From Rhodobacter sp. 24-YEA-8 (GTDB lineage Bacteria > Pseudomonadota > Alphaproteobacteria > Rhodobacterales > Rhodobacteraceae): a stretch of 64,000 bases of DNA. The stretch spans positions 204,001 to 268,000 of the forward strand of contig NZ_FNSK01000003.1 in assembly GCF_900105075.1 (NCBI RefSeq). Direction: 5' to 3'. This document shows positions 8,437 through 56,986 of this stretch, one piece after another; within the stretch, counting starts at the first letter, position 1, and the number at the start of each line of letters is the position of its first letter. Position numbers and translations under genes: made by a program. Below the pieces are notes generated by a model. That model ran no database searches. It was not told the origin of the DNA and saw nothing but the letters and a program-made list of their open reading frames with translations.

Positions 8437-8495
8437 GCGGCGGCCTCGGAGTGGCTTTCAAACATATTCCTGGCAGAATAGCGAAGTCCTGGCAG

Positions 8496-38751: not shown

Positions 38752-38844
38752 CTTACCGTCCTTTCCGTTCCGTGGAGGTCTGTGCTTCTAACGCTCGCAC
38801 ATTGCGATGCCGGTTGGGGAGGGCGGCAACCATCCCATCTGTGT

Positions 38845-39737: not shown

Positions 39738-39866
39738 GTCGTCCTCCTGGATATGCGGTCACTTCAGGTGATCCGGATCTGTCGGACCCGCAGGGACCAG
39801 GTGGATGCATGAACCAGCTGTTGCGCAGATTGTTCCCCATGTTGGCCAGAACGCCGCCCGTACCGC

Positions 39867-39892
39867 GGAACAATCCATAGATGTTCCCGGTT
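39867..39892 (+). promoter_or_regulatory. Candidate EcfG-type promoter of the BON gene
   Basis: GGAAC (39867-39871), 17 bases, GGTT (39889-39892), ending 61 bp before the ATG. It matches the GGAAC-N16/17-[C/G]GTT pattern found across this block. Confidence 0.6.
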
Positions 39893-39953
39893 TGAACAAA
39901 CTACAATGATCGGCGGATGCGCAGCCTGCCCTGTGACAAAAGGAGAAAATGAC

Positions 39954-40478
39954 ATGGAAAATAACTGGAAAGCGGTGCGATATCTCCGGCCCGGATTTTT
40001 CGGAGGGAGGCGATCAAACGATTTTCCGCCGACCTCCCTCGGCCACGAAGATCGTGCCGGCAATGGTGCTGCATCTATACCTGGCTTGCGGGAGTGGGAT
40101 CCTGACCAACGCCACCTTGGGCGCAGAGAATGGGATCCGGGAAATTATGGGGGACTTGACCGCGAGCGCGGGCCGGAAGGCCATTCCGAAGACGTTCCGG
40201 TTTCTCGGCGCGGGCCGTTCCGGGGCATGGGGCCGAAGAATTACGTCCGCTCGGATGGCCGCATCTGCGAAGATGTCTGTGAAAGACTGACCGAAGCGGA
40301 TGATATTGATGCCAGGGGTATCACGGTCAAAGCTCGATCCGGCGAGATCACGCTTGAGGGTTGCGTTGCCACGCTGAGTTCGAGATGCGCTGCAGAACAT
40401 CAGGCCCTGTCCTGCAGGGGGGTAACTGATGTCCGAAACAGGCTGGAGGTCAGGTCGGGGCACAAGACCACACGCTGA
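39954..40478 (+). CDS. BON domain protein 1
   Basis: 174 residues from ATG 39954 (AGGAG upstream). A low-complexity, Arg/Gly/Asp-rich first half is followed by RGMGPKNYVRSDGRICEDVC, which opens a BON domain (about residues 100-170) with ITVKARSGEITLEGCV and VTDVRNRLEV. BON domains bind membranes or phospholipid and occur in OsmY-type stress proteins. No signal peptide is seen. A paralogue lies at 51.5 kb with the same layout. Unusually cysteine-rich for a BON domain (five Cys in the last 75 residues). Confidence 0.78.
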   Translation: MENNWKAVRYLRPGFFGGRRSNDFPPTSLGHEDRAGNGAASIPGLREWDPDQRHLGRREWDPGNYGGLDRERGPEGHSEDVPVSRRGPFRGMGPKNYVRSDGRICEDVCERLTEADDIDARGITVKARSGEITLEGCVATLSSRCAAEHQALSCRGVTDVRNRLEVRSGHKTTR

Positions 40479-40625
40479 AATGGGCAGCTCCGCCGCTCGC
40501 ACAAGAGATACGGGGCAGTATAGCAACGGTTCCACACTGTTTCGGGAAATGGGAAATTCCGGCTGTTGTCAGAGGGGGGAACCCGGTAAACTTGCTTTCA
40601 GGGACTGGCATCATGGGTATTGACG

Positions 40626-40847
40626 ATGAGTAATTCCGTAATCCCTTTCCCCGGTCCTGATCTGGGACGGGCTTCTGACGAAGACGATCTGGTGGAGACT
40701 GCAGGTCAGGAGCTGCTCTCGGCAGTGATGGCCCAGCCTGTTCCTGACCGGCTGCATGCGCTTGCCGCCGAACTGGGAAAGGCGCTTGATCGGCGTATGG
40801 CTGACTTTTCAACGGGCCAGAGCGAAGGATCAACCGATCCGGACTGA
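40626..40847 (+). CDS. NepR-like anti-sigma factor candidate
   Basis: 73 residues immediately upstream of the sigma gene. The core GQELLSAVMAQPVPDRLHAL resembles the NepR helix (consensus around 'L...Y..v..E.VPDRl..Ll..L'), which clamps EcfG sigma factors. Flanks are acidic and disordered. Gene order nepR-ecfG is classical in Alphaproteobacteria. The match is short, so this is a candidate. Confidence 0.55.
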   Translation: MSNSVIPFPGPDLGRASDEDDLVETAGQELLSAVMAQPVPDRLHALAAELGKALDRRMADFSTGQSEGSTDPD

Positions 40848-40885
40848 GCATGGCGGCGGATTACCGCCACTGTCACAGGCACTGC

Positions 40886-40910
40886 GGAACTTAATACCCC
40901 CCGATCCGTT
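40886..40910 (+). promoter_or_regulatory. EcfG-type promoter of the sigma gene (autoregulation)
   Basis: GGAAC (40886-40890), 16 bases, CGTT (40907-40910), 34 bp before the sigma-factor ATG. Exact match to the general-stress sigma consensus. Confidence 0.75.
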
Positions 40911-40943
40911 TCCCTTACAATCAGAAGTGGAGGGAGACACATT

Positions 40944-41498
40944 ATGGCCACCTCGAAGCAAATCATACCGCAGGACCCAAAGCCTCAGGACGGATCAGCT
41001 TCGGGCAAAGTGGTCGAAATGATCCCGTTCCTGCGTATCTATGCCCGAAATCTGACACGCGGCGGAACTGAGGCGGATGACCTCGTCCAGGAAACGCTCG
41101 TCAAGGCAATTGCGAATATAGACCGCTTCCAGCCGGGCACCAATCTGAGGGCCTGGCTTTTTACGATCATGCGCAACAGCTTCCTGACCGGGATCATGAA
41201 AAGATCGCGTGAGCCGGTTGGAAATCAGGATTGTGTTTCTGCTCAGGTGATCAGCTTTCCCGTCCATGACTCGCATATGGCATGCAATCGGGTGATGCAG
41301 GCGATCAGGCGACTGCCGGCCCAGTACAGAGAAGCGCTGGTGCTCGTATTCCTGGTGGGAGAGAGCTATCAGGATGTAGCGCGGATCTGCGATTGTGCCA
41401 TCGGAACAGTGAAAAGCCGGATCAGCCGTGGGCGGCAAATGCTGATGGATGATCTGCAGGTTACCACTGTGCGCGACCTGATTGCCGTCAATTACTGA
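40944..41498 (+). CDS. ecfG: EcfG-type RNA polymerase sigma factor (general stress response)
   Basis: 184 residues. Region 2: FLRIYARNLTRGGTEADDLV ... NLRAWLFTIMRNSF. Region 4: AIRRLPAQYREALVLVFLVG with SYQDVARICDCAIGTVKSRI. This matches the ECF15/EcfG group that pairs with NepR and PhyR in Alphaproteobacteria. The ATG has GGAGGGAG upstream. Its own promoter carries the consensus it should recognise. The NepR-like gene lies 96 bp upstream, and a kinase and receivers lie convergently downstream. Confidence 0.88.
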   Translation: MATSKQIIPQDPKPQDGSASGKVVEMIPFLRIYARNLTRGGTEADDLVQETLVKAIANIDRFQPGTNLRAWLFTIMRNSFLTGIMKRSREPVGNQDCVSAQVISFPVHDSHMACNRVMQAIRRLPAQYREALVLVFLVGESYQDVARICDCAIGTVKSRISRGRQMLMDDLQVTTVRDLIAVNY

Positions 41499-41725
41499 GA
41501 CAATGCCCCCGCGCGCCCCGCGGGCTGTCCCGATTTGAACATCTGCGCGGCCCGGCTGCTTCTCTCAGAGTTTCGGCTCGGGATGCCGGTTTTGTGCTCC
41601 TCCTTATTGAGCTGATCTTCAGCCCTCTTTTTCTATTGGGCTGCTCGTCCGGCGCGCCGTTTTCAGAAACCATATCCCACTCCCCACCCCATCGCGCAGC
41701 CAAATCCGTTGCAGGCCAGCGAAGG

Positions 41726-44700
41726 TCAGATCGGAAGTGAGATCGTGCAGAAGACCCCATCCGATTCAACGCGGAAGGAAGTCGCTGCGTCCAGCTGGTA
41801 GGGCAATGCGCGCTCGATCAGCTCGCGCCCCTGCCCCCAGCCAGGTTCAGCCTCGGGCATGACGACACCTGTTTCACGCCAGGTAATATGGAGGCGGCGC
41901 CTGTCCTCGCCCTCAATCCGCCAACCAATATGCAGATGCCCGGTCGCACCGTTCAACGCGCCATGTTTCACCGCGTTGGTGGCCAGTTCATGCAAAGCCA
42001 TGGCCAGGAGCTGCACGGTTAAAGGCCCAAGAGGAACATCTGAGGGACCATCAAGTATCAGGCGTTCCCCGGGATCGGTCCCGACGGCAGAAAGCGCGGT
42101 CCTGACGAGCGCGTCGAAGCTGAGCCTTGAGTTTTCGTCGAGACCCGAGAGCAGTCCCTGAACCCGCGCCAGCATTTCAAGCCGGTCGCGGAATCGTTGA
42201 CCGAAATCCGTCATATCCCGTGCGGATTGCAGGGTGCGCTGTGCGACCTGACGCACCACCGACAAGAGATTGCGTGTCCGGTGCTGAAGCTCTCCCACCA
42301 GCACGCGCTGCCGTTCCTGCAGGCTTAACAATTCGTCCATATCTGTCGAGGCACACAGCCATTCGATGATCCGCCCTCCTGCGTTGCGCACCGGAGTGGC
42401 ACGGGTCTGAAACCAGCGCCACTGGCCTGTCGATACATCCATCAATCGGAAATCGGCTTCGAACCCTGCGGTTTCCACGACCGCCCATGCACTCTGTGCC
42501 GTTTCGCGATCATCGGGATGAACCTGTTCCAGCCAGCCCGCCCCCTGCGCCTTTTCTACCGACTGGCCGGTATAAGTGGCCCATTGCGGGCTGGCCCAGG
42601 TCCAGGATCCGCCAGGATCGGCACGCCATATCAACTGTGGCAGACCATCGATCAGAACATGCAGCCGCTTTTCGCTGTCTTGCAATGCCCGCTCGGCATG
42701 GTGCGTCGCGGTCATATCGGTGAAAGTCAGAACGGTGCCGCCGATGAAATTGTCGATGCTTCGATAGGGCAGCACCCGCACGGCATAGTCGCGGTCCCGG
42801 GTTCTGTCGCTAACCATGCGGTCAATCGGGATCAGGCTTTGCAGCACCTGCCGCACATCCTCATGGATCTCGGGATAGCTGATCCGTGCCACTATATGAT
42901 CAAGCGGGCGACCGACATCGGTTTCGAGCAGGTGGAACACCTCGGTCGCCGAGGCGGTGAAATTGCGGAGCCTGAAATCATTGTCGAGGAAGATGGTCGC
43001 AATCTGGCTGGCTTCCAGCAGGTTCTTGATGTCCGAATTGCTGCGCCCCAGTTCATGGATCTGATGGCCAAGCTCCAGATTGACGGTCTGAAGCTCTTCG
43101 TTCAGCGATTGCAGTTCCTCTTTTGAGGTTTCCAGCTCTTCGTTGGTGGATTGCAGCTCTTCATTGATCGACTGGTATTCCTCATTCGAGGATCGCAATT
43201 CCTCATTGGTGGATTCCAGCTCTTCAATGGTCGCCTGAAGACGCCCGCGCGTCAGCCGCAGCTCGTTTTCAATGCGCTGCACATGATCGTCGGCGCCCGA
43301 AGGTGCTGGCCTTTCAGCTTCGTCGCTGGCGGGGCCGACATGCTGAAAGACAACCACGAGCGAAGTTATATGTTCACGGCTGAGCGGTTCGATGATGATA
43401 TTCACACAAGAGGCCTGTTCCTCGTGTTTGATCACCTGGCGCAGCAGTTCGACTTTCTTCGCCTCGGCAAGGGCGCGATAGAGTGCGGCCCTAAGCTCGC
43501 CGCGCAGATCGGGATGAACGAGGCTGATCAGGCTTAGGGAGGCAGCCCCTGCCAGCGGTTCCAGAAACCGCCCGATCCTTCCAGAAAAATGCAGCACCTC
43601 GAATTGCGTGTCGATCACAACATAGCCGGGGGCAAAGCGTTCCGCGACGGCGTCCGCCTGGCGGCCGATGCTGTCCGACAGTCGTGGCAGTTGCACCGCC
43701 AGAGGATCCGGCGATGCTATGGTCACGGATGGGCCGGATTGAACGCGCAGGGATGGCGGGAAATCCGGGATGACCCGGGTGGCTGTATCCAGACGGCGGA
43801 ACAGGCGGTTCTTGCGGTCAACGGGCGCGAAAAGTGTCTGATGGCGGGTGACGTTTTCTGACGAGCCCAGCATCAGAATCCAACGCCCCCGCAGCGCGAA
43901 ATGGAACAGGGGAATGGTGCGATCCTGCACCTCTATATTCAGATATATCAGCAAATTCCGGCAAGAGAGCAGGTCAATCCGAGAGAAAGGTGCGTCCCGG
44001 ACCAGATTATGGGGGGAGAAGATACAGATCTCGCGCAATTCTTTGACGACGTTGTAGGTATCGCCTTCGCGTGTGAACCAGCGCTCCAGACGATCCGGGC
44101 GGATATGATCCGCGATGGTCGGCGCATATCGCGCGGCACGCGCCAGCCCGAGGGCCCGCGCATCAAGGTCGGTGGCGAAAATCTGGATGCGCGGCGGAAC
44201 CTCCAGCGTGGCGGCATATTCTTTCAGCAGCATCGCGATGGAATAGGCCTCTTCGCCCGTGGCACAGCCCAGCACCCAGACGCGGACCATATCCCCTTCG
44301 CGCTTGCCTTCAAAAAGCGACGGAATTTCGCGCTCCAGCAGGTCGAACTCCAGAGGATCCCGAAAGAACTGTGTGACGCCGATCAGAAGATCCTGGAAAA
44401 GGCGCTGCACCTCTTCACGATTTTCACGCAACAGTTCTACATAGGCGGCAATGTCTGGCATTTGCAGCACCTTAAGACGCCGCTGCACCCGGCGCACGAA
44501 GGTGCCACGCTTATAGCCGTGGAAATCATTGCCCGTTACCTTCCGAAGCGCGCTGACGATCCCGGCGATTTTCGTTTCCACCTCTTCGGCGGTGATGCGG
44601 ATGCTCTCTTCGTGAAGCACCGCGATATTGCCAATGTAGAGATCAATTTCCGCAGCGATGCGGCTTGGCGTGCCCCGGATGTCAAGAACGCCGGATGGCC

Positions 44701-45235
44701 CGGCCCTCTCTGATCCGTCGGCATCGCCCGGATCCCATTCCCCTATCGTCAGGCCCCCGCACTCCTTCGCGGCGCGCAATCCAACCGCACCTTCCGCATG
44801 CAGCCCGTTCAGAATGACGGCAACGGAATGGCGCCCGGCATTACGCGCGATGGAGTCCAGCATCGTATCGACAGCGCCGGCTCTCTCGCCGGCAGGCTGG
44901 TCGCGCACAGAAATGCGGCCAGCGTCCAAGGTCAGCAGCCGATCGGCGCCGGCAATATAGACATGTTCCGGCAGGAGCGGCGCACCATCCTCGGCCATCA
45001 TCACTGTAAATGATGAGACTGCCGTCGCTTCAGACAGTAAGTCTTCCTCCGACGGGCGATCTTTGCCGCCAATTGCGACCAGATATGCGCCGCCAAGACC
45101 CGGTTCTGTCGAGGACAGAATTTCGAGAAATGAGCCCAGCGATTTTGCAGAGACGCCAATGCCGATAACCGCCGCAACATCAGGAGGAAGATTTTCCGGA
45201 TCTTTCACCGGATCTGTCTCATGGGTGTCATTCAT
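41726..45235 (-). CDS. CheB/CheR-PAS-HWE sensor histidine kinase
   Basis: About 1169 residues. It has a CheB-like domain (about 20-210) with a degenerate active site (GIGVSAKS retained, but NGLHAEGAVGL where CheB has the Ser-Asp-Gly of GSDG). A CheR methyltransferase follows (about 230-480: VWVLGCATGEEAYSIAML, SCRNLLIYL). Then come a coiled coil of repeated E-L-x-S-x-N-E-E units (about 655-730), PAS domains (about 735-975) and an HWE kinase (H box ELQHRTRN near 983, N box ELATNAVKHG, WRETG). Start at ATG 45235 (AGGA upstream) rather than 45274. Such kinases feed general-stress receivers. Confidence 0.88.
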   Translation of the reverse strand: MNDTHETDPVKDPENLPPDVAAVIGIGVSAKSLGSFLEILSSTEPGLGGAYLVAIGGKDRPSEEDLLSEATAVSSFTVMMAEDGAPLLPEHVYIAGADRLLTLDAGRISVRDQPAGERAGAVDTMLDSIARNAGRHSVAVILNGLHAEGAVGLRAAKECGGLTIGEWDPGDADGSERAGPSGVLDIRGTPSRIAAEIDLYIGNIAVLHEESIRITAEEVETKIAGIVSALRKVTGNDFHGYKRGTFVRRVQRRLKVLQMPDIAAYVELLRENREEVQRLFQDLLIGVTQFFRDPLEFDLLEREIPSLFEGKREGDMVRVWVLGCATGEEAYSIAMLLKEYAATLEVPPRIQIFATDLDARALGLARAARYAPTIADHIRPDRLERWFTREGDTYNVVKELREICIFSPHNLVRDAPFSRIDLLSCRNLLIYLNIEVQDRTIPLFHFALRGRWILMLGSSENVTRHQTLFAPVDRKNRLFRRLDTATRVIPDFPPSLRVQSGPSVTIASPDPLAVQLPRLSDSIGRQADAVAERFAPGYVVIDTQFEVLHFSGRIGRFLEPLAGAASLSLISLVHPDLRGELRAALYRALAEAKKVELLRQVIKHEEQASCVNIIIEPLSREHITSLVVVFQHVGPASDEAERPAPSGADDHVQRIENELRLTRGRLQATIEELESTNEELRSSNEEYQSINEELQSTNEELETSKEELQSLNEELQTVNLELGHQIHELGRSNSDIKNLLEASQIATIFLDNDFRLRNFTASATEVFHLLETDVGRPLDHIVARISYPEIHEDVRQVLQSLIPIDRMVSDRTRDRDYAVRVLPYRSIDNFIGGTVLTFTDMTATHHAERALQDSEKRLHVLIDGLPQLIWRADPGGSWTWASPQWATYTGQSVEKAQGAGWLEQVHPDDRETAQSAWAVVETAGFEADFRLMDVSTGQWRWFQTRATPVRNAGGRIIEWLCASTDMDELLSLQERQRVLVGELQHRTRNLLSVVRQVAQRTLQSARDMTDFGQRFRDRLEMLARVQGLLSGLDENSRLSFDALVRTALSAVGTDPGERLILDGPSDVPLGPLTVQLLAMALHELATNAVKHGALNGATGHLHIGWRIEGEDRRRLHITWRETGVVMPEAEPGWGQGRELIERALPYQLDAATSFRVESDGVFCTISLPI

Positions 45236-45282
45236 TGGGTATCCTGGGCGTCTCGGGCATGGCGTGTGAAACACATGTCTGA

Positions 45283-45307
45283 AGCGTCATGCAACGACAA
45301 AGGTTCC
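45283..45307 (-). promoter_or_regulatory. Near-match EcfG-type promoter of the CheB/CheR kinase
   Basis: Minus strand GGAAC (45307-45303), 16 bases, CGCT (45286-45283); one mismatch to CGTT. 47 bp upstream of the preferred ATG. Confidence 0.4.
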
Positions 45308-45320
45308 CGCTGAAAGTGGA

Positions 45321-45884
45321 TCAGTGCAGCAGATCGCGCCCACGCTCTGCCAGAGCACGTTCCATCAGGTGTTGCAGCCATTTTTCCAGAGGTGGCAGCG
45401 TTTGCAGGCCCGACTGCTCCTCTATCGCAAGCAACAAGGTCGCTTCGACCAGCCGGTCGGCAGCTGCGGGGTCGGTCAGGATCAGCCGGGCCGACAGCCT
45501 CAGCTTTGGCAGGAGCGCCATCAGCGTTTGCGTATGGATCTGGTTACGCAGCAGCTCTACGGTCGCGCGGGCTTCATAGGGCTTCGGCAACCGGGCAACA
45601 CGGGCAAACCGACGCGGTATCTTCGTGACCTCATGCGCCGAGTAAAAAACGAAAGGGACAGCGGCCCCCATCAGTAGATCGGCCAGCAGATAGACCTCCT
45701 GGTCCCTCAGATTTACATCGAGCACCGCAAGGTCTGCATCCTCGACATAATCAGTTGCCTCAACAACCGAAGGAAAAGGCCCGAGCACTTTGGCCTTTGC
45801 CGCGCGGAAATGATCCGCCAGTTCGCAGGCAAGGTAGTAGTCATCCTCGACTATCATGATCGTGCGACCGGAAAGGGTTTGCAT
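45321..45884 (-). CDS. Receiver protein with a C-terminal sigma-region-2-like domain
   Basis: 187 residues. Residues 1-120 form a receiver: MIVEDDYYLA (acid pocket), AVLDVNLRD (phospho-acceptor Asp near 56), FVFYSAHE and LPKPYE (Lys). Residues 125-185 (LPKLRLSARLILTDPAAADR, then LVEATLLLAI and LEKWLQHLMERAL) line up with region 2 of the EcfG in this window (PFLRIYARNLTRGGTEADDL, LVQETLVKAI, LRAWLFTIMRN). PhyR, the known partner-switching regulator, has a sigma-like domain followed by a receiver; here the order is reversed and region 4 is absent. Located beside the HWE kinase. A mimic of sigma that titrates NepR is possible but inferred. Confidence 0.75.
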   Translation of the reverse strand: MQTLSGRTIMIVEDDYYLACELADHFRAAKAKVLGPFPSVVEATDYVEDADLAVLDVNLRDQEVYLLADLLMGAAVPFVFYSAHEVTKIPRRFARVARLPKPYEARATVELLRNQIHTQTLMALLPKLRLSARLILTDPAAADRLVEATLLLAIEEQSGLQTLPPLEKWLQHLMERALAERGRDLLH

Positions 45885-46425
45885 CTTTAATCCGTCTCGC
45901 GGCTGGTTCGGTTGTTCCGATGCAGCGGGCCCGGCGCGGATCGGACTATGCTTGTATCACTATGAAGCAAGTTGAGATTGAAGCAACCTCTGCGGTGAAT
46001 CTCAATACATCATATTTATCAAAGGCTTGACTTACATTCATTCCGAATCTGCGGATATCCGCCTGCCGGAATCTCCTCTTCAGGCCACTCAAAGGTTGAT
46101 AGGCTTCTCCAGACGCGGGATTGCAGCATATGCCTGGGGCAACAAAGCCGTGTCGTAACCTGTGATAAAAATGAAGGGGATCGCCGCCGCGACGAGGTGA
46201 TCGGCCAGGGGAAAGACCATCTCCCCCCGGAGATTTACGTCAAGCATCGCAAAATCCGGGGTGACACCGGTCCGCAGACCTTCAAGGGCCTCGCGGACTG
46301 TCGGGAACGGGCCGATCACCCTGGCGCCCGCACGCTGCAGAAATTTTGTAAGATCGGCCGCCAGAAGATATTCATCTTCAGCAACCAGCACCGCTTTTCC
46401 GAGCAGGGTCGTCAGGAGTGAACTA

Positions 46426-47276
46426 GGTCATGTTGACAAATGGCGGATCCATAGCCTGATGCAGGCAATGTCTATGACACCTAGGAAGCTGTCTGCGGTC
46501 TTGTCGTAGCGGGTTGCCAGCCTGCGACTGTTCTTAAGCTTGTTGAAGCACCGCTCGACCATGTTGCGTAGCGTGTAGATCGTCATGTCGACCGCCTTGC
46601 GCAGCTTGCGGTTCTTTCGCATCGGTATCATCGGAAGAGCATTGCGGCTCTCGATGTCTTCCCGAATTTTATCAGAGTCATAGCCCCTGTCCGCGACAAG
46701 AACGGCGGGCTGTGGCAGATTGTCAGCCATCACCAGATCGTAGCCGGTGTAGTCTGAATCCTGTCCGGGCGTGATTTCGGTTCTCATGGGGAGGCCAGCG
46801 CCGTTGACGCGGAGGTGGATCTTGGTCGAGAACCCACCTCTTGAACGGCCAAAAGCCTCTTTCGGAGTCCCCCTTTTGCGCCCGCCGCATGATGATGGGC
46901 ACGGATCACGGTGCTGTCGACCATCTGCAGTTTGTCTGGCGCAATCCCCGCGTGGTTCAGCGCGTCCAGGATATCCTCCCACAGTCCGGCCAGAGTCCAG
47001 CGCCGGAACTGGCGATAGACCGAGGACCACTTGCCGAACTCTTCAGGCAGATCCCGCCACGGCGCGCCTGTTCGCGCTATCCAGAAAATTCCATTCAGAA
47101 CAATACGATGATTGGATGGCTTGCGCCCATTCGGGTGTCGGACGGCACAAATGAACCCCTCGAAGAAGGCCCACTCATCATCGGATATCAGGTTGCGTGC
47201 CAAGTTCATCTCCCACGTAGAGATGAGCTTGAATCACAGGGCATCGATCAGTGGAATCCCTTTTGTCAACACGTCC
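46426..47276 (-). mobile_element. IS5-family (IS427-like) element inside a receiver gene
   Basis: About 851 bp with imperfect ends GGTCATGTTGACAAA and, inverted, GGACGTGTTGACAAA (13 of 15 identical). It is flanked by TA on both sides (46424-46425 and 47277-47278), the short target typical of this group. It carries a two-frame transposase. Confidence 0.85.
46428..47209 (-). CDS. IS5-family transposase in two overlapping frames
   Basis: The first frame (46784-47209) begins MNLARNLISDDEWAFFEGF and holds GIFWIARTGAPWRDLP and the first catalytic Asp (QMVDSTVIRAHHHAAG). The second frame (46428-47030) continues with RSRGGFSTKIHLR, VLVADRGYDSDKIR (second Asp) and LRNMVERCFNKLKNSRR (Glu). This two-frame layout is normal for IS427-type elements, which make the full enzyme by frameshifting, so it may be functional. 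Confidence 0.85.
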
Positions 47277-47454
47277 TAAGGTCTGCATTCCGCATTTGTG
47301 ACTATCCTCCCGGGGACCAGGATCAACTACATCAGGCGCTGCTGCCATAGCCGAATGCAGCAATCGCGCGAGGCCTCCGAATTTGCAACGGGCCGGTCCC
47401 TGAAGGGACTGGTCTTGGCAGGAACTCCCCACGGGTGTCCCCTCCGCCAGACAA

Positions 47455-47479
47455 AACGGGCGAAAGCCATGCATGTTCC
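47455..47479 (-). promoter_or_regulatory. EcfG-type promoter of the interrupted receiver
   Basis: Minus strand GGAAC (47479-47475), 16 bases, CGTT (47458-47455). Exact consensus, 160 bp upstream of the receiver's original ATG (47295). Confidence 0.6.
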
Positions 47480-47510
47480 TGACCCCAAGGCGGTCCGGCG
47501 TATGCGCGCT

Positions 47511-47535
47511 GGAACAACGGCCCGCGATCCTTGTT
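47511..47535 (+). promoter_or_regulatory. Near-match EcfG-type promoter of the SDR gene
   Basis: GGAAC (47511-47515), 16 bases, TGTT (47532-47535), 32 bp before the ATG at 47568. First base of the -10 differs from C/G. Confidence 0.45.
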
Positions 47536-47567
47536 CAGCAGAGCATCAGCATAGCGGAGGCCGTGAC

Positions 47568-49570: not shown

Positions 49571-49604
49571 AGAGGTGAACCCGCGCTTGAAGTCAGCCTT
49601 AAAT

Positions 49605-49630
49605 GTCGTTTGTGTCGAAATAATTGTTCC
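49605..49630 (-). promoter_or_regulatory. Near-match EcfG-type promoter of the HWE kinase
   Basis: Minus strand GGAAC (49630-49626), 17 bases, CGAC (49608-49605), 35 bp upstream of ATG 49570. The -10 is off consensus in its last two bases. Confidence 0.3.
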
Positions 49631-49771
49631 CTTGCGCAGATGAATCAAGATTAAAAATCGGGTCACGGTGCGGCGCTGAAAAGGCTCGCGCTGACGATTG
49701 TTCAGCGCCGCACTGCACGGGGTGGGAACTGCGGCCCGGCACGTCGTAAGCCGGACCCCGGAACGCATCTG

Positions 49772-49948
49772 TTAATCCTCGGGGGTCGGTATCGGCTTTG
49801 GATTCCTGGGCCCGGGCTTTGCTTCGCCCATGTCGTCGGGCTCTGAGCGTGCGTCTTCCATATCGGCGGGATAAGTCTCGTCATCATCGATCGATGGTTT
49901 GGCTTCACGGCGTGACAACACGCCCTTGTTGCGGGTTTTGACAGGCAT
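49772..49948 (-). CDS. Small acidic, proline-rich hypothetical protein
   Basis: 58 residues beginning MPVKTRNKGVLSRREAKPS, then a run of acidic residues (DDDETYPADMEDARSEPDD) and a Pro-rich tail (KPGPRNPKPIPTPED). Predicted disordered. AGAGAGGATCG precedes the ATG. It resembles short disordered stress-associated proteins, but I do not recognise a named family. Confidence 0.5.
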   Translation of the reverse strand: MPVKTRNKGVLSRREAKPSIDDDETYPADMEDARSEPDDMGEAKPGPRNPKPIPTPED

Positions 49949-50184
49949 GGACGATCCTCTCTCCGATGATCTGTTGTATTCGTGCCCGTAGCCGCTCCAC
50001 AGTTTCCGTTAATAGGCACGCCGGATGCACTGAACTCTGTGACCCCAAAGCCGTGTGGCGCCAGAGCGGTTCCCACGCCCGGTTGCAGCGAGGATCGGCT
50101 ACGGCTTTTCGTGGGCCGGTCTCCGCACCCGGCGGAGGCCAGCGCTACTTTTCCTGCAGCCGTCAGGGAGCGGCGACGGCGGTC

Positions 50185-50682
50185 TCAGGCGGCGGCAAGC
50201 GCGGCCTTGTTGACATAACCATCGGCAAGCTCCGTCAGGGTGCTGTCGGTGGCCTCTTCTTCGGTCAGCGTGTTTTGCAGGATCTTTGCAATCTCATCCT
50301 GTCCGAGCAGTTCGGCCCAGTTCCGCAATGTGCCGTAGCGGGCCATTTCATAATGCTCGACCGCCTGCGCCGCAGCGATCAATCCCGCATCAAGCGCCGG
50401 CGAGCCTTTAAAGCTTTCGATCACCTCTTCGCCTTCATCAAGGATCCCTTCGATTGCCGGACAGGTCTTGCCACGGGCGGGCTTACCCAGAATTTCGAAC
50501 ACCTGCTGGAGCCGCTCGACATGGATCTGGGTTTCGTCATGGTGCTTTTCAAATGCGGTTCCTAGCTCTGCCGACTGCGCCGCCCGCGCCATTTTAGGCA
50601 AGGCTTTCAGCACCTTGCGCTCGGCGTAGTAGACGTCTTTAAGAAGATCGAGGAACAGATCATCTAGTGTCTTCGCTTTCAT
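50185..50682 (-). CDS. DUF892 (YciE/YciF-like) ferritin-like protein
   Basis: About 165 residues; start at ATG 50682 (MKAKTLDDLFLD) with AGGAG upstream. The four-helix bundle shows DVYYAERKVLKALPKMA, AFEKHHDETQIHVERLQQVF and AVEHYEMARYGTLR, with Glu/His pairs of the ferritin-like metal site. YciE/YciF-type proteins accumulate under osmotic and general stress. A candidate EcfG-type promoter lies 41 bp upstream. Confidence 0.88.
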   Translation of the reverse strand: MKAKTLDDLFLDLLKDVYYAERKVLKALPKMARAAQSAELGTAFEKHHDETQIHVERLQQVFEILGKPARGKTCPAIEGILDEGEEVIESFKGSPALDAGLIAAAQAVEHYEMARYGTLRNWAELLGQDEIAKILQNTLTEEEATDSTLTELADGYVNKAALAAA

Positions 50683-50687
50683 CGGTC

Positions 50688-50837
50688 TCACTCCTGTTCA
50701 GTTTGATCGGGATCAACCTCAGGAACAGATGGCGAGACAGATTGTTCCGGCGCTTCCCCATCATCCGCAACTGGTGGCGGAGGATTGCCGTTCAGATGGA
50801 TCACCGTACTTTCGCCGCTGCGCAGATTTATCCTCAT
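50688..50837 (-). CDS. Possible small protein
   Basis: 49 codons from ATG 50837 (MRINLRSGESTVIHLNG) ending in an acidic, Pro/Glu-rich tail. The frame runs on upstream to 50978 without a ribosome site. It overlaps the promoter-like element of the DUF892 gene, which weakens the call. Confidence 0.35.
   Translation of the reverse strand: MRINLRSGESTVIHLNGNPPPPVADDGEAPEQSVSPSVPEVDPDQTEQE
50724..50748 (-). promoter_or_regulatory. Near-match EcfG-type promoter of the DUF892 gene
   Basis: Minus strand GGAAC (50748-50744), 16 bases, TGTT (50727-50724). The same segment reads GGAAC-N16-TGTT on the plus strand, so it is a palindromic pair. Confidence 0.4.
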
Positions 50838-50904
50838 GGCGCCGCCGTGAGGTTCGCGCGGCAGTATCCCGCAAGGCGAGTTACGGCCCATGCTGTCCTT
50901 TATG

Positions 50905-50929
50905 GGAACATTGCGGCCTCTGTTCCGAT
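50905..50929 (+). promoter_or_regulatory. Near-match EcfG-type promoter of the TM protein
   Basis: GGAAC (50905-50909), 16 bases, CGAT (50926-50929), 36 bp before ATG 50966; third -10 base differs. Confidence 0.4.
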
Positions 50930-50965
50930 TGTAACGCCAGAGATCTGAACAGGAAGGAGAAGGCC

Positions 50966-51280
50966 ATGTCCGCGCCACATACCAATCTCGAGAAGCAAAG
51001 AAAGCGTCACTGGGCTCCGCTGCTGGGGATCGCTGCCGCCACTCTGTTTGGTGTCCTGCTTATCGTATACTGGATCGCCGAAGAGGTTGTCGAAGCCGAT
51101 CCGGAAACCCCTGCCGGAATCGAGTCCGGAACGGTAAACGAGCCAGCGCAGTCGGCTATACCTGCCGAGGCCATCGAGCCAGGCGCTCAGCCGGGGGAGA
51201 CCGGAAGCACGGTGAACCCGCCGACCACCCGCGAAAGCCCGCCCCTGCCCAATGCACCCGAAGAGCTGACAACCGAATAG
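50966..51280 (+). CDS. Small single-pass membrane protein
   Basis: 104 residues. The basic N-terminus (EKQRKRHW) precedes one membrane helix (PLLGIAAATLFGVLLIVYWI, residues 18-37), then an acidic, Pro/Glu-rich tail predicted disordered and periplasmic. GAAGGAGA precedes the ATG. Family unknown. Confidence 0.65.
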   Translation: MSAPHTNLEKQRKRHWAPLLGIAAATLFGVLLIVYWIAEEVVEADPETPAGIESGTVNEPAQSAIPAEAIEPGAQPGETGSTVNPPTTRESPPLPNAPEELTTE

Positions 51281-51471
51281 TCATCGCCCGGGCCTGTGGG
51301 AAGGTGCTGCATCATGTCGGCCAGAGATTTTCGGCGGAATCTTCGATCCCTAAGGGCACCCGGCTGAAGCTGACACACCCGTGTATCGAAGTCTGCGGCC
51401 TGCTTCTCAGCGGGCCGCAGTGCAAAGCAGTGAAGAGCAGATGGGCGTCAGGCGCCTTTTATGCGTGTCGT

Positions 51472-52233
51472 TCAGCTATCAACCCCACTGGCGCTCGTCG
51501 CGCCTGTTTCATCACCGGTGTCACGAATACGAAGGTTGTTCTGGACATGCCTTATCCCTGAACATTGCTCGACGGTGTCTTCTGCGGCGCGTTTCGCATA
51601 TCGCGAGGATACCTGCCCGCTGAGGGTGACTTCTCCATTCGCAACATCAACGGAAATGCCACGCGCATCCACGGCATCCGCGTCGGCCAGCCGATCGCAG
51701 ACATCATCCCGGATCCGCTCATCGCTGCGCTTGTAATCCTTGGGGCCATGACCGCGAAATCCCCTCTCTGCCGGCTCATCCCGGCCCTGCCCCTGGAACG
51801 CAGAATAGATTCCGGGATCATAGCTTCGGGGAGGAAAGCCGGCGACATAGGGGGGATAACCGGCGCTTTCCCGGAAGCTGCCCGCAGCCTCCCGATCACG
51901 GCGTGCCTCATCACGCCAGTTCCGGCCATCCTCATCGTATCTGCGTTCGTGACGGGCGAAGCCGAAGGCGTGGCCGTAATCCTGCTGACCGTAATCCTGG
52001 CTCCCGTAGTCATCATGCGCCCTGCCGGGCGCCCGAACATAATCACGCCGGTCCTGATCCCATTGCGAACCGGCGCGAAAACGGGTCTCGGCCGCATCTT
52101 CACGTACATGTGGCTGATCATATGCGCGGGGCCGCCAGGGCGTCGTGTGCTCATCGCGGCCGCCACCGTCTCTCTCATAGCGGGCCCGGTTGCGCTGATC
52201 GTCCTGGCTCTCATCATAGCGCCGATTTGCCAT
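51472..52233 (-). CDS. BON domain protein 2 (long disordered N-terminus)
   Basis: 253 residues. The first 150 are rich in Arg, Asp, Tyr and Gln (for example DYGSQDYGQQDYGHAFGFAR) and look disordered. Then RGHGPKDYKRSDERIRDDVC opens a BON domain ending VQNNLRI near 240. The BON core is collinear with BON protein 1 at 40 kb (KDYKRSDERIRDDVCDRL against KNYVRSDGRICEDVCERL), so they are paralogues. AGGAGGAATG precedes the ATG. A GGAAC-N16-GGTT element lies 83 bp upstream. Confidence 0.82.
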   Translation of the reverse strand: MANRRYDESQDDQRNRARYERDGGGRDEHTTPWRPRAYDQPHVREDAAETRFRAGSQWDQDRRDYVRAPGRAHDDYGSQDYGQQDYGHAFGFARHERRYDEDGRNWRDEARRDREAAGSFRESAGYPPYVAGFPPRSYDPGIYSAFQGQGRDEPAERGFRGHGPKDYKRSDERIRDDVCDRLADADAVDARGISVDVANGEVTLSGQVSSRYAKRAAEDTVEQCSGIRHVQNNLRIRDTGDETGATSASGVDS

Positions 52234-52315
52234 TCGTCATTCCTCCTGTGTTGTGCGGCACTGGGCCGGTTTCTGAGGCCTTTGCGCAGATGGCGATCTC
52301 TGCGCGCATCCGATG

Positions 52316-52340
52316 AACCTCAGGGCTTGCGATTTGTTCC
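52316..52340 (-). promoter_or_regulatory. EcfG-type promoter of BON gene 2
   Basis: Minus strand GGAAC (52340-52336), 16 bases, GGTT (52319-52316), in the gap between sodC and the BON gene. Confidence 0.6.
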
Positions 52341-52355
52341 TGTCCGGAGCGCGGC

Positions 52356-52886
52356 CTATTCGATAACCGCACAGGCCAGGCGGTCGCCTGCATTTCCACT
52401 GGGTTGACTGCGGTGATCATCGGCGCCGGCATGCACCATGAGCGCCCGCCCCCTGATCGAGTTTTCACCAGCGCCAAGAGACACATACGGGTTGAAAACC
52501 TGCACCCGGGCGACGCCGTCTGCATCGGTATGGATATTCGGCATATCCCCCGCATGAGGGCCTGTTTCCGACAACACACCATGCGCCAGATTGGTGGGAT
52601 TGAAATGGCCGCCGGCGGATTCATGGGCGCTGTGGGGATCGCATGTGCCGGTCTCATGCACATGAAACCCCAGCCAGGCATTGGCGGGAAGGCCGCCAAG
52701 GTCGAGGTCGATCAGAACGCCGCCCCTGGTGCCGGTGAGGGTCGCAGTGCCGGTCTCTGTGCCCTCGGTGTTGATAAATGCCGCACGGCTTTCTTCGGCC
52801 TTCGTTTGCGGGGCTTCTGTCTGAGCGAATACTGCCAGCGGCAGAGCAAAAGCCGTGCAAAGCAGAGTGAGGGCAATGGGTTTCAT
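52356..52886 (-). CDS. sodC: Periplasmic Cu-Zn superoxide dismutase
   Basis: 176 residues from ATG 52886 (MKPIALTLL, GGAGGAACG upstream). Signal peptide to about residue 21, then the SodC fold with GFHVHETGTC (Cu ligands), SAHESAGGHFNP, NIHTDADGVA and HAGADDHRSQPSGNAGDRLA. It dismutates superoxide in the periplasm. The GGAAC-N16-GGTT element 29 bp upstream suggests general-stress control. Confidence 0.93.
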   Translation of the reverse strand: MKPIALTLLCTAFALPLAVFAQTEAPQTKAEESRAAFINTEGTETGTATLTGTRGGVLIDLDLGGLPANAWLGFHVHETGTCDPHSAHESAGGHFNPTNLAHGVLSETGPHAGDMPNIHTDADGVARVQVFNPYVSLGAGENSIRGRALMVHAGADDHRSQPSGNAGDRLACAVIE

Positions 52887-52914
52887 AGGACGTTCCTCCA
52901 TGTGACAGAGAAGC

Positions 52915-52939
52915 AACCTGCCGCCAGTGAGGTTGTTCC
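52915..52939 (-). promoter_or_regulatory. EcfG-type promoter of sodC
   Basis: Minus strand GGAAC (52939-52935), 16 bases, GGTT (52918-52915), 29 bp before the sodC ATG. Confidence 0.65.
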
Positions 52940-52947
52940 CTCACCGG

Positions 52948-54333
52948 TCAGTCTGAGATGGCTGCATCCTCCTGAGGCGCGGCGGGCCGCTCATTTGCGC
53001 GGATATCCGCAACCTCGGCGGCAGTTACCGGTCCGGCCTCGTTGCCCCATGCCTGCCTCAGAAAGCTGGTCAGGGCGGCGATGTCGTCATCACTCAACCG
53101 CGCGTCATAGCCCTGCATCACCAAAGGCATCGGTCGCTGCGCCGTTCCCTCCATCGTGGCACCCCAGAGGATGATCGAGACCAGAGGGGTGATCTCATCG
53201 GACAGCACCAGCGTATTGCCCTGAAGCGCGGGGAAGATTTCCGGCGAGCCGCGCCCGGTGACAAAATGGCATTGGGCGCAATTGTCCATGAAGACCCTCG
53301 CGCCGAGAGGCATATCGGGGGTGGCTTCGGTGAGCATCAGCGCTGTGGCCTCGCCGCGCGTGTCTGCCTCAGGGGCCGGTAAGGAAAGTGGCCCCTGAGG
53401 CACTGCCATCTCGGGCGGGTCATGCGGCTGGCCGTCCAGCGCTTTCAGAAAGCGCGCCATGGCGATGATATCCTCATCCGTCAGATATTGCAGGGAATGC
53501 TCAACCACGAGGCCCATCTCGCCATTCGCGGCAGAGGCGAAATTGCGCCCGGTGGCAAGGAAGGCTGTCAGCTCGTCCATCGGCCAGTCGCGGATCACAC
53601 TTCCCGGACCGCGCAAGGCGGGGGCTTCCTGCCCATCGATATAGCCGCCAGTCAGGAAGGCTGGCTCATCCGCCGTGATCCCGTCCTGTCCCATATAGAC
53701 CGTGCGGGGGCTGTGGCAGGCCGCGCAGTGCCCAGGTCCTTCGACCAGATACTGGCCACGGTCCAGTTCCGGCGCACCCATCATGCCGGTGAAACCGCTC
53801 TCATGGTTCAGGGTCAGCCAGTTCAGCGCGCGGATACCCCAACGCTGGTTGAAGGGGAATGGCAGCTCTGGCTCGGGCACGTCGTTGCGGACCGGCTCCA
53901 CCTCTTCCATGAAATAGCTGTAGAGCGCGCGGATGTCGTGTTCCGTCAGAAGCCTGTAATTCTCATTGGGCATGGCGGGGTAAAGATGGCTGCCATCGGC
54001 GCTCAGCCCATCGACCAGCGCGCCCCGGAACTGATCGAGCGTCCAGCCGCCAATCCCGGTTTCAGGATCCGGTGTGATGTTCGCAGTGTAGATCGTGCCA
54101 AGCGGGCTGTGGATCGGCCGCCCGCCCGCGAAATCCGCACCATCCTCAGTCGTATGGCAGGCCATGCAATCGCCCGCCCGCATGGCGTATTCGCCCTCCC
54201 CCGGTTCAGGAGCCCAATCTTCAGGCAAAGCCTCGGAGGCGGGTGAGCGGCTGACGGGGATCCATATGATCGCCGCGACGCCAAGCATGCCGACCACTGC
54301 GAAGGCCACGAATAGGCGAAGGACGGTTTTCAT
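52948..54333 (-). CDS. Tri-haem cytochrome c subunit of a membrane dehydrogenase
   Basis: About 461 residues from ATG 54333 (MKTVLRLFVAF). An N-terminal membrane anchor or signal helix is followed by three haem c sites: CMACH, CAACH and CAQCH (about residues 54, 204 and 347). This matches the cytochrome subunit of gluconate/alcohol/fructose-type dehydrogenases, passing electrons from the flavin subunit to ubiquinone. It is the third gene of the operon, 11 bp after the flavoprotein gene. Confidence 0.9.
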   Translation of the reverse strand: MKTVLRLFVAFAVVGMLGVAAIIWIPVSRSPASEALPEDWAPEPGEGEYAMRAGDCMACHTTEDGADFAGGRPIHSPLGTIYTANITPDPETGIGGWTLDQFRGALVDGLSADGSHLYPAMPNENYRLLTEHDIRALYSYFMEEVEPVRNDVPEPELPFPFNQRWGIRALNWLTLNHESGFTGMMGAPELDRGQYLVEGPGHCAACHSPRTVYMGQDGITADEPAFLTGGYIDGQEAPALRGPGSVIRDWPMDELTAFLATGRNFASAANGEMGLVVEHSLQYLTDEDIIAMARFLKALDGQPHDPPEMAVPQGPLSLPAPEADTRGEATALMLTEATPDMPLGARVFMDNCAQCHFVTGRGSPEIFPALQGNTLVLSDEITPLVSIILWGATMEGTAQRPMPLVMQGYDARLSDDDIAALTSFLRQAWGNEAGPVTAAEVADIRANERPAAPQEDAAISD

Positions 54334-54344
54334 CTCATCCCCCC

Positions 54345-56114
54345 TCAGACCAGCGGACCGGGATTGCGCAGATAATGGCGCCGGATCGCATCCGCCGCCC
54401 AATAGGCAAGCCCGCCGACCAGACCGGTCGGGTTGTATTGGGTGTTCTGCACGAAAGCCCCCGCCCCGGTCACAAAGACATTGTGCTTGTCCCAGGCCTG
54501 GAGATAGCGGTTCAGCGGACCGCTCTCGGGCGTGTCCGACAGGATCGCCCCGCCGGTGTTATGTGTGGTCTGATAGGGCCGCACGTCATAACGGCTGTCG
54601 AAATCCTTGTAGCTGGATTTCATCAGGTCGGGCTGCATCGAGCGCGCCAGATCCTCGATCTTCTGCTGCAAAAAGGCATTCAGCCGCAGCTCATTCGGGT
54701 GCCAGTCAAAGGTGATCCGCATCAGGGGGCGGCCATGGCGATCCTTATAGGTCGGGTCCAAATCGCAATAATGCCCGCGGTAAGACATCACCGAGGCATG
54801 ATGCGAGATGCTCATCTCATGCCCATACCATTCAGCGATGGCCGATTTCCAACCGCCCCCCCATTCCGGCGTATCCTCGGGCAGTGGCATCGAGCGGATC
54901 GGCTGGCCATTGGTCTGGGCGGAAGAGATATAGGCGCCGCCGATGAACCCTTCGACCCCGAAATCAATCGCATTCATGCCGAAATCATCAATGCACATGC
55001 CATTGATGCCGGCACCGACAAAGGGGTTGAAATGCTCGTCTTTGAAGAACATCGAGGTCGAGCCGGTGATCTGATAGCCGTAATTCCTGCCCGTCACGCC
55101 TTCGCCCGTGGCCGGGTCATAGGGCTGGCCGATGCCCGAGATCAGCATCAGCCTGACATTTTCGATCTGATATGCGGCGAGGATGACGATATCGGCGGGC
55201 TGGAACACCTCTTCGCCGCTGTCCTCGTCAAAGTATGTCACGCCGGTTGCGGTCTGGCCGTCAGGAGCCATCTCGACGCGCAAGACCTCGGCCCCGGTGC
55301 GGTAGCTGAAATTCGGTTTGCGGAAGAGCGCGGCGAGGATCGTCGTCTGAGGTGATGATTTCGAGTATTGGTAACAGCCGTAGCGCTCACAAAAGCCGCA
55401 AAAATTGCAGGCCCCCATCTGCATCCCGTATTCGTTGACATATGAGGTGGAGGCATTGCCGCCGGGGCGCGGAAACGGGTGATAGCCCATGGCACGCGCG
55501 GCCTCGGCGAATTTCGCGCCATTATATGTCTCGGGCAAAGCCGGCATCGGATAGTCGCGCGACCGCCAGCCCTCGAACGGATTGCCGCCTTCGCGGATCT
55601 CGCCATTCACATTGCCGGCGTTCCCGGAAATACCTGCCACATATTCGAAACGATCAAAAAACGGCTCCAGCTCGTCATAGGTGACGGGGTAGTCGCCAAC
55701 GGTCATATCCTCGGGGATGATGCCGTCGCCCCAGCGATCAGCGATATAGCTGCGAAGTCCCATTTCGACCGGCTGCGGCCGCCAGTTCTGACCGTTCCAA
55801 TGCACGCCCGAGCCGCCGACACCATTCCCGAGCAGAAACGAGCCCCATTTGCGCATTGGCAGCGCGGTTTCATTCAGGTCGCGGCGGATGGTGATCGTGG
55901 ATTGCGAGGGGCGCTGCATCATCTTGTGACGCTCGCCCTGCGCCAGTTCGTCGATCATCCCGGGATATTTCATTTCCGGCACGGTGCGGCGGTCGGGGCC
56001 GCGCTCCAGCGCCACAATCTCCAACCCCTCCTGGACCAGTTCCATCCCCATGATTGCGCCCGTCCACCCAAGGCCGACAATCACCACATCCTTTTTCGGG
56101 TCCTGCCTCGCCAT
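54345..56114 (-). CDS. GMC-family flavoprotein dehydrogenase subunit (gluconate-2-dehydrogenase-like)
   Basis: 589 residues. FAD-binding VVIVGLGWTGAIMGMEL at the N-terminus, GSGVHWNG near 113, a Cys-rich segment GACNFCGFCERYGC near 240 that may hold an Fe-S cluster, and the C-terminal GMC pattern HNTGGAILSD ... VTGAGAFVQNTQYNPTG. Similar subunits oxidise gluconate, sorbitol or fructose in the periplasm. The exact sugar is unknown. It lies between subunit 3 (3-bp gap) and the cytochrome. Confidence 0.88.
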   Translation of the reverse strand: MARQDPKKDVVIVGLGWTGAIMGMELVQEGLEIVALERGPDRRTVPEMKYPGMIDELAQGERHKMMQRPSQSTITIRRDLNETALPMRKWGSFLLGNGVGGSGVHWNGQNWRPQPVEMGLRSYIADRWGDGIIPEDMTVGDYPVTYDELEPFFDRFEYVAGISGNAGNVNGEIREGGNPFEGWRSRDYPMPALPETYNGAKFAEAARAMGYHPFPRPGGNASTSYVNEYGMQMGACNFCGFCERYGCYQYSKSSPQTTILAALFRKPNFSYRTGAEVLRVEMAPDGQTATGVTYFDEDSGEEVFQPADIVILAAYQIENVRLMLISGIGQPYDPATGEGVTGRNYGYQITGSTSMFFKDEHFNPFVGAGINGMCIDDFGMNAIDFGVEGFIGGAYISSAQTNGQPIRSMPLPEDTPEWGGGWKSAIAEWYGHEMSISHHASVMSYRGHYCDLDPTYKDRHGRPLMRITFDWHPNELRLNAFLQQKIEDLARSMQPDLMKSSYKDFDSRYDVRPYQTTHNTGGAILSDTPESGPLNRYLQAWDKHNVFVTGAGAFVQNTQYNPTGLVGGLAYWAADAIRRHYLRNPGPLV

Positions 56115-56117
56115 AAC

Positions 56118-56867
56118 TCAGGCCCTCTCGCCCGAGATCGACACCGGGCCGAGCGGATAAGGGATATTGTGCCGCTCGACCCATTCCCTGAAATGCGCCC
56201 GCGCACCGGGAAAGCCGATATGGACCCAGGCCGCCATGCCGTGATTGCCGCCATGGATGGGGTCGGAAAAATAACCCTCTTTGGTATTAGCGAGCAGGAT
56301 GTCAAAGAAATCGCGCAGTTCCGGCGGCAGCGGCACATCGCCGTCTTCAAGCGCGGCAAGGGCTTCGTCCTGCGCCTCTGCGGTGAGATCCGCGAAACCC
56401 GCGCCCTGACTGCTGACACACCATTCATCGAAGAGCGGAATGCCAGCGCGATAGATTTCGGCTGGCGACATGGGAGACTGCCAGCCGAGTTCGGGCGGTG
56501 CATCAGGCTGATGCGGTCCCTCCATATACCAATCCTTGGCGGTGCCAAAATCCCCGGCCAGTTCGCGATCAATAAAGACCGGCACCCGCGCCTCGATCGC
56601 ACCAGGTCCATCACCGTCGGATGGGATCAGCCGCGCGACCGCCGAAAGGACGAACGCCCATTCGGTTTCATTGAAATAAACGCGGGGGTGTTCTGCGAGG
56701 GGCGGAAGGGCTTGCGCTTTTGCCGCATTGGAGCGCCAGAGCCCTGCTGCCGCCAGGCTGGCGGCGGAAACTCTCAGAAACTGGCGGCGTCCCGGATGAC
56801 TGAGCGGGTAGCTGGTCGGATCATTGGCGATACGGTCTGGCGGTGAACCTTGTGGTGGGGCGGTCAT
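56118..56867 (-). CDS. Gluconate-2-dehydrogenase subunit 3 (Tat-exported)
   Basis: 249 residues. The twin-arginine signal GRRQFLRVSAASLAAAGLW lies near residue 25, so the complex is folded before export and the flavin subunit rides along. The rest matches the gluconate-2-dehydrogenase subunit-3 family (WAFVLSAVARLIPSDGDGPG, GYFSDPIHGGNHG). First gene of the operon; a GGAAC-N16-GGTT element lies 61 bp upstream. Confidence 0.88.
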   Translation of the reverse strand: MTAPPQGSPPDRIANDPTSYPLSHPGRRQFLRVSAASLAAAGLWRSNAAKAQALPPLAEHPRVYFNETEWAFVLSAVARLIPSDGDGPGAIEARVPVFIDRELAGDFGTAKDWYMEGPHQPDAPPELGWQSPMSPAEIYRAGIPLFDEWCVSSQGAGFADLTAEAQDEALAALEDGDVPLPPELRDFFDILLANTKEGYFSDPIHGGNHGMAAWVHIGFPGARAHFREWVERHNIPYPLGPVSISGERA

Positions 56868-56927
56868 GTCGTTTCCCTGGCTGTGAACTGGGCTGGAAGC
56901 GGCATCCGGGATGCTCTGGGAACCCTG

Positions 56928-56952
56928 AACCGGGGATAGTGCAGATTGTTCC
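56928..56952 (-). promoter_or_regulatory. EcfG-type promoter of the dehydrogenase operon
   Basis: Minus strand GGAAC (56952-56948), 16 bases, GGTT (56931-56928). Its -35 lies only nine bases from that of the divergent exoD promoter. Confidence 0.62.
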
Positions 56953-56961
56953 GGGAATTCC

Positions 56962-56986
56962 GGAACAGTCTTGTCGTGAACGGGTT
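56962..56986 (+). promoter_or_regulatory. EcfG-type promoter of the exoD-like gene
   Basis: GGAAC (56962-56966), 16 bases, GGTT (56983-56986), 36 bp before the ATG at 57023. Back-to-back with the dehydrogenase promoter in a near-palindrome centred at about 56957. Confidence 0.62.

Follow-up and report, generated by a model that had tools for sequence, protein, structure and literature searches.

A cluster of EcfG-type promoters and a receiver–sigma-2 protein in a probable second general-stress-response module of Rhodobacter sp. 24-YEA-8

The 64-kb stretch of Rhodobacter sp. 24-YEA-8 DNA analysed here (the window) carries a dense group of EcfG-type promoter sites around an ecfG gene, together with the gene of a protein, called REC-sigma2 below, in which an N-terminal receiver is followed by an EcfG-type sigma-2 domain. 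As a whole, the locus is probably explained by a second general-stress-response module, whose promoters would be read by EcfG, with a NepR-like protein as restraint and REC-sigma2 as decoy. The promoter part is that of the general stress response already known from Alphaproteobacteria; what is new in the module, and of main interest at the locus, is REC-sigma2. The cluster would provide an additional stress sigma factor with a ready-made regulon, and connects this factor with a sugar-dehydrogenase operon of periplasmic type and with the SodC, BON and ExoD proteins.

Genes and promoter sites of the module

The first-pass annotation of the window had reported seven sites of the form GGAAC-N16/17-[C/G]GTT within 17 kb. 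Each was recovered with its coordinates and strand, and an eighth, which had been overlooked, lies at 39812–39836 (−). This last site (GGAAC-N16-GGTT; 18.4 bits in a position matrix) lies upstream of a gene for a small EF-hand protein (39417–39737), at 74 nt from its ATG. A promoter with N17 and GGTT (39867–39892, +), recognized by motif and matrix, precedes BON1, which encodes a BON-domain protein (39954–40478, +; the frame is open from 39906 and the start at 39954 was judged by eye). There follow the small, divergent NepR-like gene (40626–40847, +), directly before ecfG, and the promoter of ecfG itself (CGTT; 40886–40910, +), 33 nt before the ATG of the sigma factor gene (40944–41498, +). 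The window EcfG has sigma-2 and sigma-4.2 domains and is closest to EcfG-type relatives, as expected of an EcfG (ECF15) sigma factor; it is nearest to the proteins of Szabonella and Xinfangfangia, and its relatives are at most 68% identical to it.

Beyond ecfG lie the genes of a CheB-CheR-PAS-HWE histidine kinase (41726–45274, −) and of REC-sigma2 (45321–45884, −), then the remaining piece of an SdrG-type single-receiver gene (46135–46422, −), cut by an IS5-family insertion element (46424–47278, −; transposase frames 46428–47030 and 46784–47209). The element has parted an EcfG-type consensus match at 47455–47479 (−) from the receiver, REC-sigma2 and kinase genes. The split receiver was considered as a candidate PhyR and ruled out: what is left of the gene encodes a single receiver, and PhyR sits on the main contig. 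Relatives of the IS5-family element occur on Paracoccus plasmids, and IS110-family transposase frames (37720–39435) adjoin the cluster, so that the module is both flanked and interrupted by insertion elements. The cluster matched 23 plasmid records; among the 20 listed, 17 correspond to the IS5 element, one to the kinase region and two to the GMC gene, none of them with a query cover of at least 80%.

On the far side of the element, a TGTT promoter variant (47511–47535, +) precedes the gene of a short-chain dehydrogenase (SDR; 47568–48527, +; scanned as frame 47298–48527), which is followed by that of a second HWE histidine kinase (HWE2; 48476–49768, −). A second TGTT variant (50724–50748, −) stands before the gene of a DUF892/YciF-like protein (50185–50691, −), and a CGAT variant (50905–50929, +) before that of a small membrane (TM) protein (50966–51280, +; frame listed from 50729). 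BON2 (51472–52233, −) and sodC, encoding a Cu/Zn superoxide dismutase (52356–52886, −; frame from 52916), have their promoters at 52316–52340 (−) and 52915–52939 (−). The dehydrogenase operon (52948–56867, −) comprises genes for gluconate_2-dh3 (56118–56867), a GMC oxidoreductase (54345–56114) and a cytochrome c (52948–54402), all on the minus strand. Its promoter (56928–56952, −) and that of exoD (56962–56986, +) complete the cluster, exoD itself being at 57024–57613 (+; frame from 56843). Elsewhere in the window, an open reading frame of 2817 codons occupies 8433–16886 (+).

The window belongs to contig C3 (281 kb), which is apart from the main 3.43-Mb contig C1 and on which RepC was not found. 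A second copy of the module is present on contig C5 (246 kb), which carries a RepC gene, at C5:192700–201760 (L117). Identity between the C3 and C5 proteins is 70% for the EF-hand protein, 67% for the NepR-like protein, 87% for EcfG, 77% for REC-sigma2, 83% for HWE2 and 77% for ExoD. In the C5 module the receiver is unsplit, genes for an SDR and a small TM protein are also present, and the CheB kinase is without the CheR part that the window's copy has. The sites of the EF-hand gene, the BON1 side, ecfG, the TM protein, the SDR and exoD are all kept in C5. At the SDR the site is TGTT in both copies; at the TM protein the CGAT of the window is replaced by CGGTT, i.e. by the full consensus. The promoter of the dehydrogenase operon has lost its −35 element in C5, and neither the operon nor BON1 was found there by tblastn. 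The BON1-side promoter, kept without BON1 (L117:1000–1320), may drive the NepR-like gene and ecfG, which lie behind it.

These comparisons sort the less certain sites. The near-matches that the first-pass annotation had proposed before the SDR and DUF892 genes hold up, with scores (20.1 and 18.5 bits) like those of exact sites, and the CGAT site before the TM-protein gene is a full consensus in the paralogue. Those proposed before both HWE kinases are poorly supported: the best candidates score low, and in C5 the HWE2 near-match has lost its −35 and the HWE1 near-match its −10. The match at 47479 (−), taken as the promoter of the interrupted receiver, is present in the window but is lost in C5. 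Neither the NepR-like gene nor REC-sigma2 figures in the text of the first-pass annotation.

Conservation extends to other genomes. In Szabonella alba (L031), the exact motif is found 29–59 nt before an ATG of the homologues of the dehydrogenase operon (59 nt; same gene order), BON2 (52 nt), ecfG, DUF892 (40 nt before the start) and the SDR; the site before ecfG scores less than 14 bits in the position matrix. Two sodC homologues near ecfG have the motif 84 nt (L091) and 31 nt (L097) before an ATG. The sites, the paralogue and the footprints in relatives together tie the BON proteins, SodC, the GMC/gluconate-dehydrogenase operon and ExoD to ecfG, as had been claimed.

The genome also has a canonical locus, on C1, with phyR (−), nepR–ecfG (+) and two overlapping divergent EcfG motifs between them; by Pfam, the order of domains in this PhyR is sigma-2, sigma-4-like, receiver. 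The sites of the cluster could then be true EcfG targets controlled by PhyR, NepR and EcfG of C1, the module's own EcfG, NepR-like protein and REC-sigma2 being redundant or decaying. The C1 locus could indeed govern everything without REC-sigma2, and the IS5 element that splits the receiver gene of the C3 copy fits with decay. However, EcfG, REC-sigma2 and HWE2 are all open frames that have kept the identities given above between C3 and C5, which suggests maintained function. We regard control from C1 as possible, although on the unlikely side, and prefer the reading of the locus as a second module with a switch of its own.

The REC-sigma2 protein and the proposed switch

By Pfam, the receiver of REC-sigma2 spans approximately residues 1–115 and a PhyR_sigma2 (PF22029) match covers residues 122–170, with an E-value of 0.00097 and 19.6 bits, under the Pfam cut-off of 27. 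A database search with the protein gave 182 matches, with a query cover of 91–100% among the 120 listed. In a family alignment built from 35 of these 120, PhyR_sigma2 was matched by 34 of the 35 members at E ≤ 0.01, and Response_reg by 16. Profile comparison with hhalign aligned the C-terminus with 57 EcfG proteins at 97.5% probability (E 6.3e-12) over 66 columns of sigma-2, and with eight PhyR-like rows, three of which represent one locus, at 42.7% (E 2.5e-4). No sigma-4-like match was found in REC-sigma2 by Pfam and profile searches, and on PhyR-like ORFs the family profile aligns in two separate segments. The AlphaFold model (mean pLDDT 82.9; stretch 104–118 poorly defined) has three C-terminal helices, at 121–135, 139–157 and 166–185. 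Among PDB structures, the receiver is nearest to SdrG. The 50 rows listed from each of Foldseek and VIA-align, both run with the whole REC-sigma2 model, contained neither PhyR nor ECF sigma chains; these matches are dominated by the receiver and barely test the C-terminal part, the sigma-2 assignment of which rests on sequence profiles.

REC-sigma2 thus unites a receiver and an EcfG-like sigma-2 domain in one protein, as PhyR does, but does not have the N-terminal sigma-2/sigma-4-like part and C-terminal receiver by which PhyR is recognized. Nor is it a single-domain receiver of the general stress response (SdrG/MrrA type), having a sigma-2 domain after its receiver. A receiver-first protein of this kind was not found in the titles and abstract openings listed for a subset of the open-access literature.

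In the available text of several studies, phosphorylated PhyR lures NepR off EcfG (PMC8103513, PMC12148442, PMC4814048, PMC3892343). We infer a comparable course of events for the module. EcfG with RNA polymerase would read GGAAC-N16/17-[C/G/T]GTT promoters upstream of ecfG itself and of the nearby genes for two BON proteins, SodC, the GMC/cytochrome-c dehydrogenase operon, the SDR, DUF892, the EF-hand protein and ExoD. In the absence of stress, EcfG would be held by the NepR-like protein, whose gene immediately precedes ecfG. Upon stress, the HWE kinases would phosphorylate receivers, with REC-sigma2 as the presumed substrate of the co-located HWE kinase, the gene of which directly follows that of REC-sigma2 in both C3 and C5 as a CheB-(CheR)-PAS-HWE kinase gene. 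The sigma-2 decoy of REC-sigma2 would then draw the NepR-like protein off EcfG, alone or perhaps with the PhyR of C1. The NepR-like proteins fall short of the NepR model PF18557, with values of 0.085 in the window (12.9 bits, against a cut-off of 25.7) and 0.075 in C5; the role is suggested by the place before ecfG and by the weak similarity.

Alternatively, the sigma-2 domain of REC-sigma2 may be put to another use, for instance if the protein is a phosphate sink or acts as a brake by binding to EcfG or RNA polymerase, and not as an anti-anti-sigma factor. Such a role would be in line with the lack of a sigma-4 part and with a receiver nearest to that of SdrG, a single-domain general-stress receiver. 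Against this, the sigma-2 part is clearly EcfG-type and recurs in nearly all family members scanned, as expected of a NepR decoy; we consider the other uses conceivable but rather doubtful. We propose REC-sigma2 as a minimal anti-anti-sigma factor. More tentatively, it might represent an unrecognized class of phospho-regulated anti-anti-sigma factors, which drives a second, exchangeable switch and replaces PhyR where EcfG-type sigma factors occur without canonical PhyR or NepR. If REC-sigma2 indeed acts as an anti-anti-sigma factor, this would imply that partner switching needs neither the sigma-4 part nor the domain order of PhyR, and would point to a means by which EcfG-type sigma factors are regulated in genomes that have neither PhyR nor NepR.

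The distribution of the protein bears on this wider proposal. Matches spanning both domains were found in 3 of 150 genomes of the family and in 4 of 387 genomes of the class, this genome being included in each count and part of each genome's candidates being scored. Among the five other loci thus found, the REC-sigma2 gene is convergent with ecfG and directly beside it in one (L123), has ecfG on one side and an HWE kinase gene on the other in a second (L175) and adjoins an HWE kinase gene in two more (L176, L177); in L124, neither ecfG nor an HWE kinase gene was found by it within the 3.6 kb of the locus. In three of the five other genomes (G162, G175 and G365; two of one genus), both EcfG-type sigma factors and REC-sigma2 are present, and the NepR model gave no match at E ≤ 0.001. 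No canonical PhyR was found among the 10 PhyR_sigma2 matches in these three genomes: six are sigma factors with region 4 (Pfam), and the others are the ecfG and REC-sigma2 products of L175 and two long frames in G162. The PhyR_sigma-like matches there are frames of 192–208 aa, too short for PhyR. Both PhyR and NepR are present in the other two genomes (G017 and G046). At E ≤ 0.001, PF22029 finds the REC-sigma2 of G162 and misses those of G017, G046, G175 and G365, which rest on the family profile. The two long frames of G162 (L182:1965–3614, −, 550 aa; L183:943–2460, +, 506 aa) have a C-terminal EcfG-type sigma-2 part and no other Pfam match; a decoy sigma-2 domain may accordingly be fused to other proteins too.

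Frequency and spacing of the promoter motif

GGAAC-N16/17-[C/G]GTT matches the window 10 times, compared with a mean of 1.59 in 100 dinucleotide shuffles, none of which reached 10. Eight of the matches fall within 39812–56986; an exact match outside the cluster, at 4638–4663 (−), has a P(non-coding) of 0.95. When the spacer was varied, seven sites were found at 16 and three at 17, as compared with 0–2 at each of 13–15 and 18–21. The density of the cluster (8 in 17.2 kb) is approximately 18 times that of C1 (89 among the matches listed, in 3.43 Mb). At this C1 rate of listed matches, 0.45 sites would be expected in 17.2 kb, and the Poisson P for eight is 2.6e-8, or approximately 5e-6 once multiplied by the number of such windows with the control rate, the limits of the cluster being defined by the sites themselves.

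The same spacing prevails at ecfG loci elsewhere. Across 80 such loci in other genomes, 1.53 Mb in all, GGAAC-N-SGTT was counted 290 times at spacer 16 and 134 times at spacer 17, compared with 11–37 times at every other spacer between 10 and 25; as many of these loci are from related genera, the counts are interdependent. Spacer 16 also shows an excess of AGTT (78), TGTT (69) and CATT (45) in these loci, over background means of 5.7, 6.9 and 7.9, and a weak one of CGAT and CGAC (51 and 55, with a background of about 30 and 32). EcfG-type sites are generally dense at ecfG loci, and this spacer peak, together with the conservation in the paralogue, bears out the earlier claim that EcfG-type promoters adjoin ecfG in the window. 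The available text of the literature gives GAAC-N16,17-C/GGTT as the consensus (PMC4814048) and the near-identical GGAAC-N17-20-GTT as the regulon motif of Sphingomonas melonis (PMC6599016); in the main text of the latter, the words gluconate, superoxide, BON domain, DUF892 and ExoD do not occur.

Genome-wide, the loose motif gives 139 matches, barely more than the 123 of a reversed control, which counts against the first-pass annotation. A tighter form, which requires A/C then A/T after GGAAC according to the position matrix of the external ecfG loci and was picked after the cluster had been seen, gives 52 matches against 13 in the control, a 4-fold excess that points to a genome-wide regulon. 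Just 6 of these 52 lie in the window cluster, and 8 are on C5. The cluster is accordingly one dense patch of a genome-wide regulon, and not the local regulon that the first-pass annotation had seen in it.

A home-made coding HMM, for which 73 long ORFs of the Rhodobacter sp. 24-YEA-8 genome served as the training set, gave P(non-coding) > 0.5 at 7 of the 8 cluster sites, the one at 39836 having 0.44. The corresponding figures for sampled C1/C2 sites were 11 of 30 for tight matches, a set that contains one leader twice (L159, L160), and 1 of 15 for others, and 33 of the 45 matches lie in DNA called coding. Since most sampled matches outside the cluster are called coding, the motif string alone is not proof of a promoter. 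This result bears on the refuting condition named in the first-pass annotation, an equal frequency of the motif in coding DNA throughout the genome. Chance matches in a GC-rich genome, to which the near-control frequency of the loose pattern and these coding calls would point, are a very improbable source of the cluster in view of its density relative to C1, the spacer peak in the 80 loci and the conservation in C5 and Szabonella, and for the whole set of sites they are ruled out by the shuffles, the spacer scan, the reversed controls and the paralogue footprints. Single sites, such as that at 47479 and the kinase near-matches, may be due to chance.

Comparison with known systems

The module resembles the alphaproteobacterial PhyR–NepR–EcfG system in its EcfG-type sigma factor, in the small gene before ecfG, in the nearby HWE kinases and in the GAAC-N16,17-C/GGTT promoters, one of which precedes ecfG itself. 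It differs from that system in being without a canonical PhyR, in the strong divergence of its NepR-like protein and in the presence of REC-sigma2. The plasmid-borne EcfG2 of Rhizobium etli is likewise an extra EcfG apart from the chromosomal one; according to the available text of the studies concerned, one of the 19 units with lowered expression in an ecfG2 mutant has a match to the EcfG1 motif, and the single NepR identified is encoded on the chromosome (PMC3892343, PMC8103513). The window ecfG, in contrast, is preceded by a NepR-like gene and surrounded by consensus sites. Two general-stress-response loci per genome, one of them with an HWE-family kinase, are also described for Rubellimicrobium thermophilum, where both loci, in the text available, encode ordinary PhyR proteins (PMC12148442).

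At the protein level, the closest solved receiver to that of REC-sigma2 is SdrG of Sphingomonas (PDB 5ieb), the chain of which is a receiver alone (130 residues), without a sigma-2 part. With PhyR, REC-sigma2 shares the fusion of a receiver to an EcfG-like sigma-2 domain, but in reversed order, with the receiver first and the sigma-4-like part absent.
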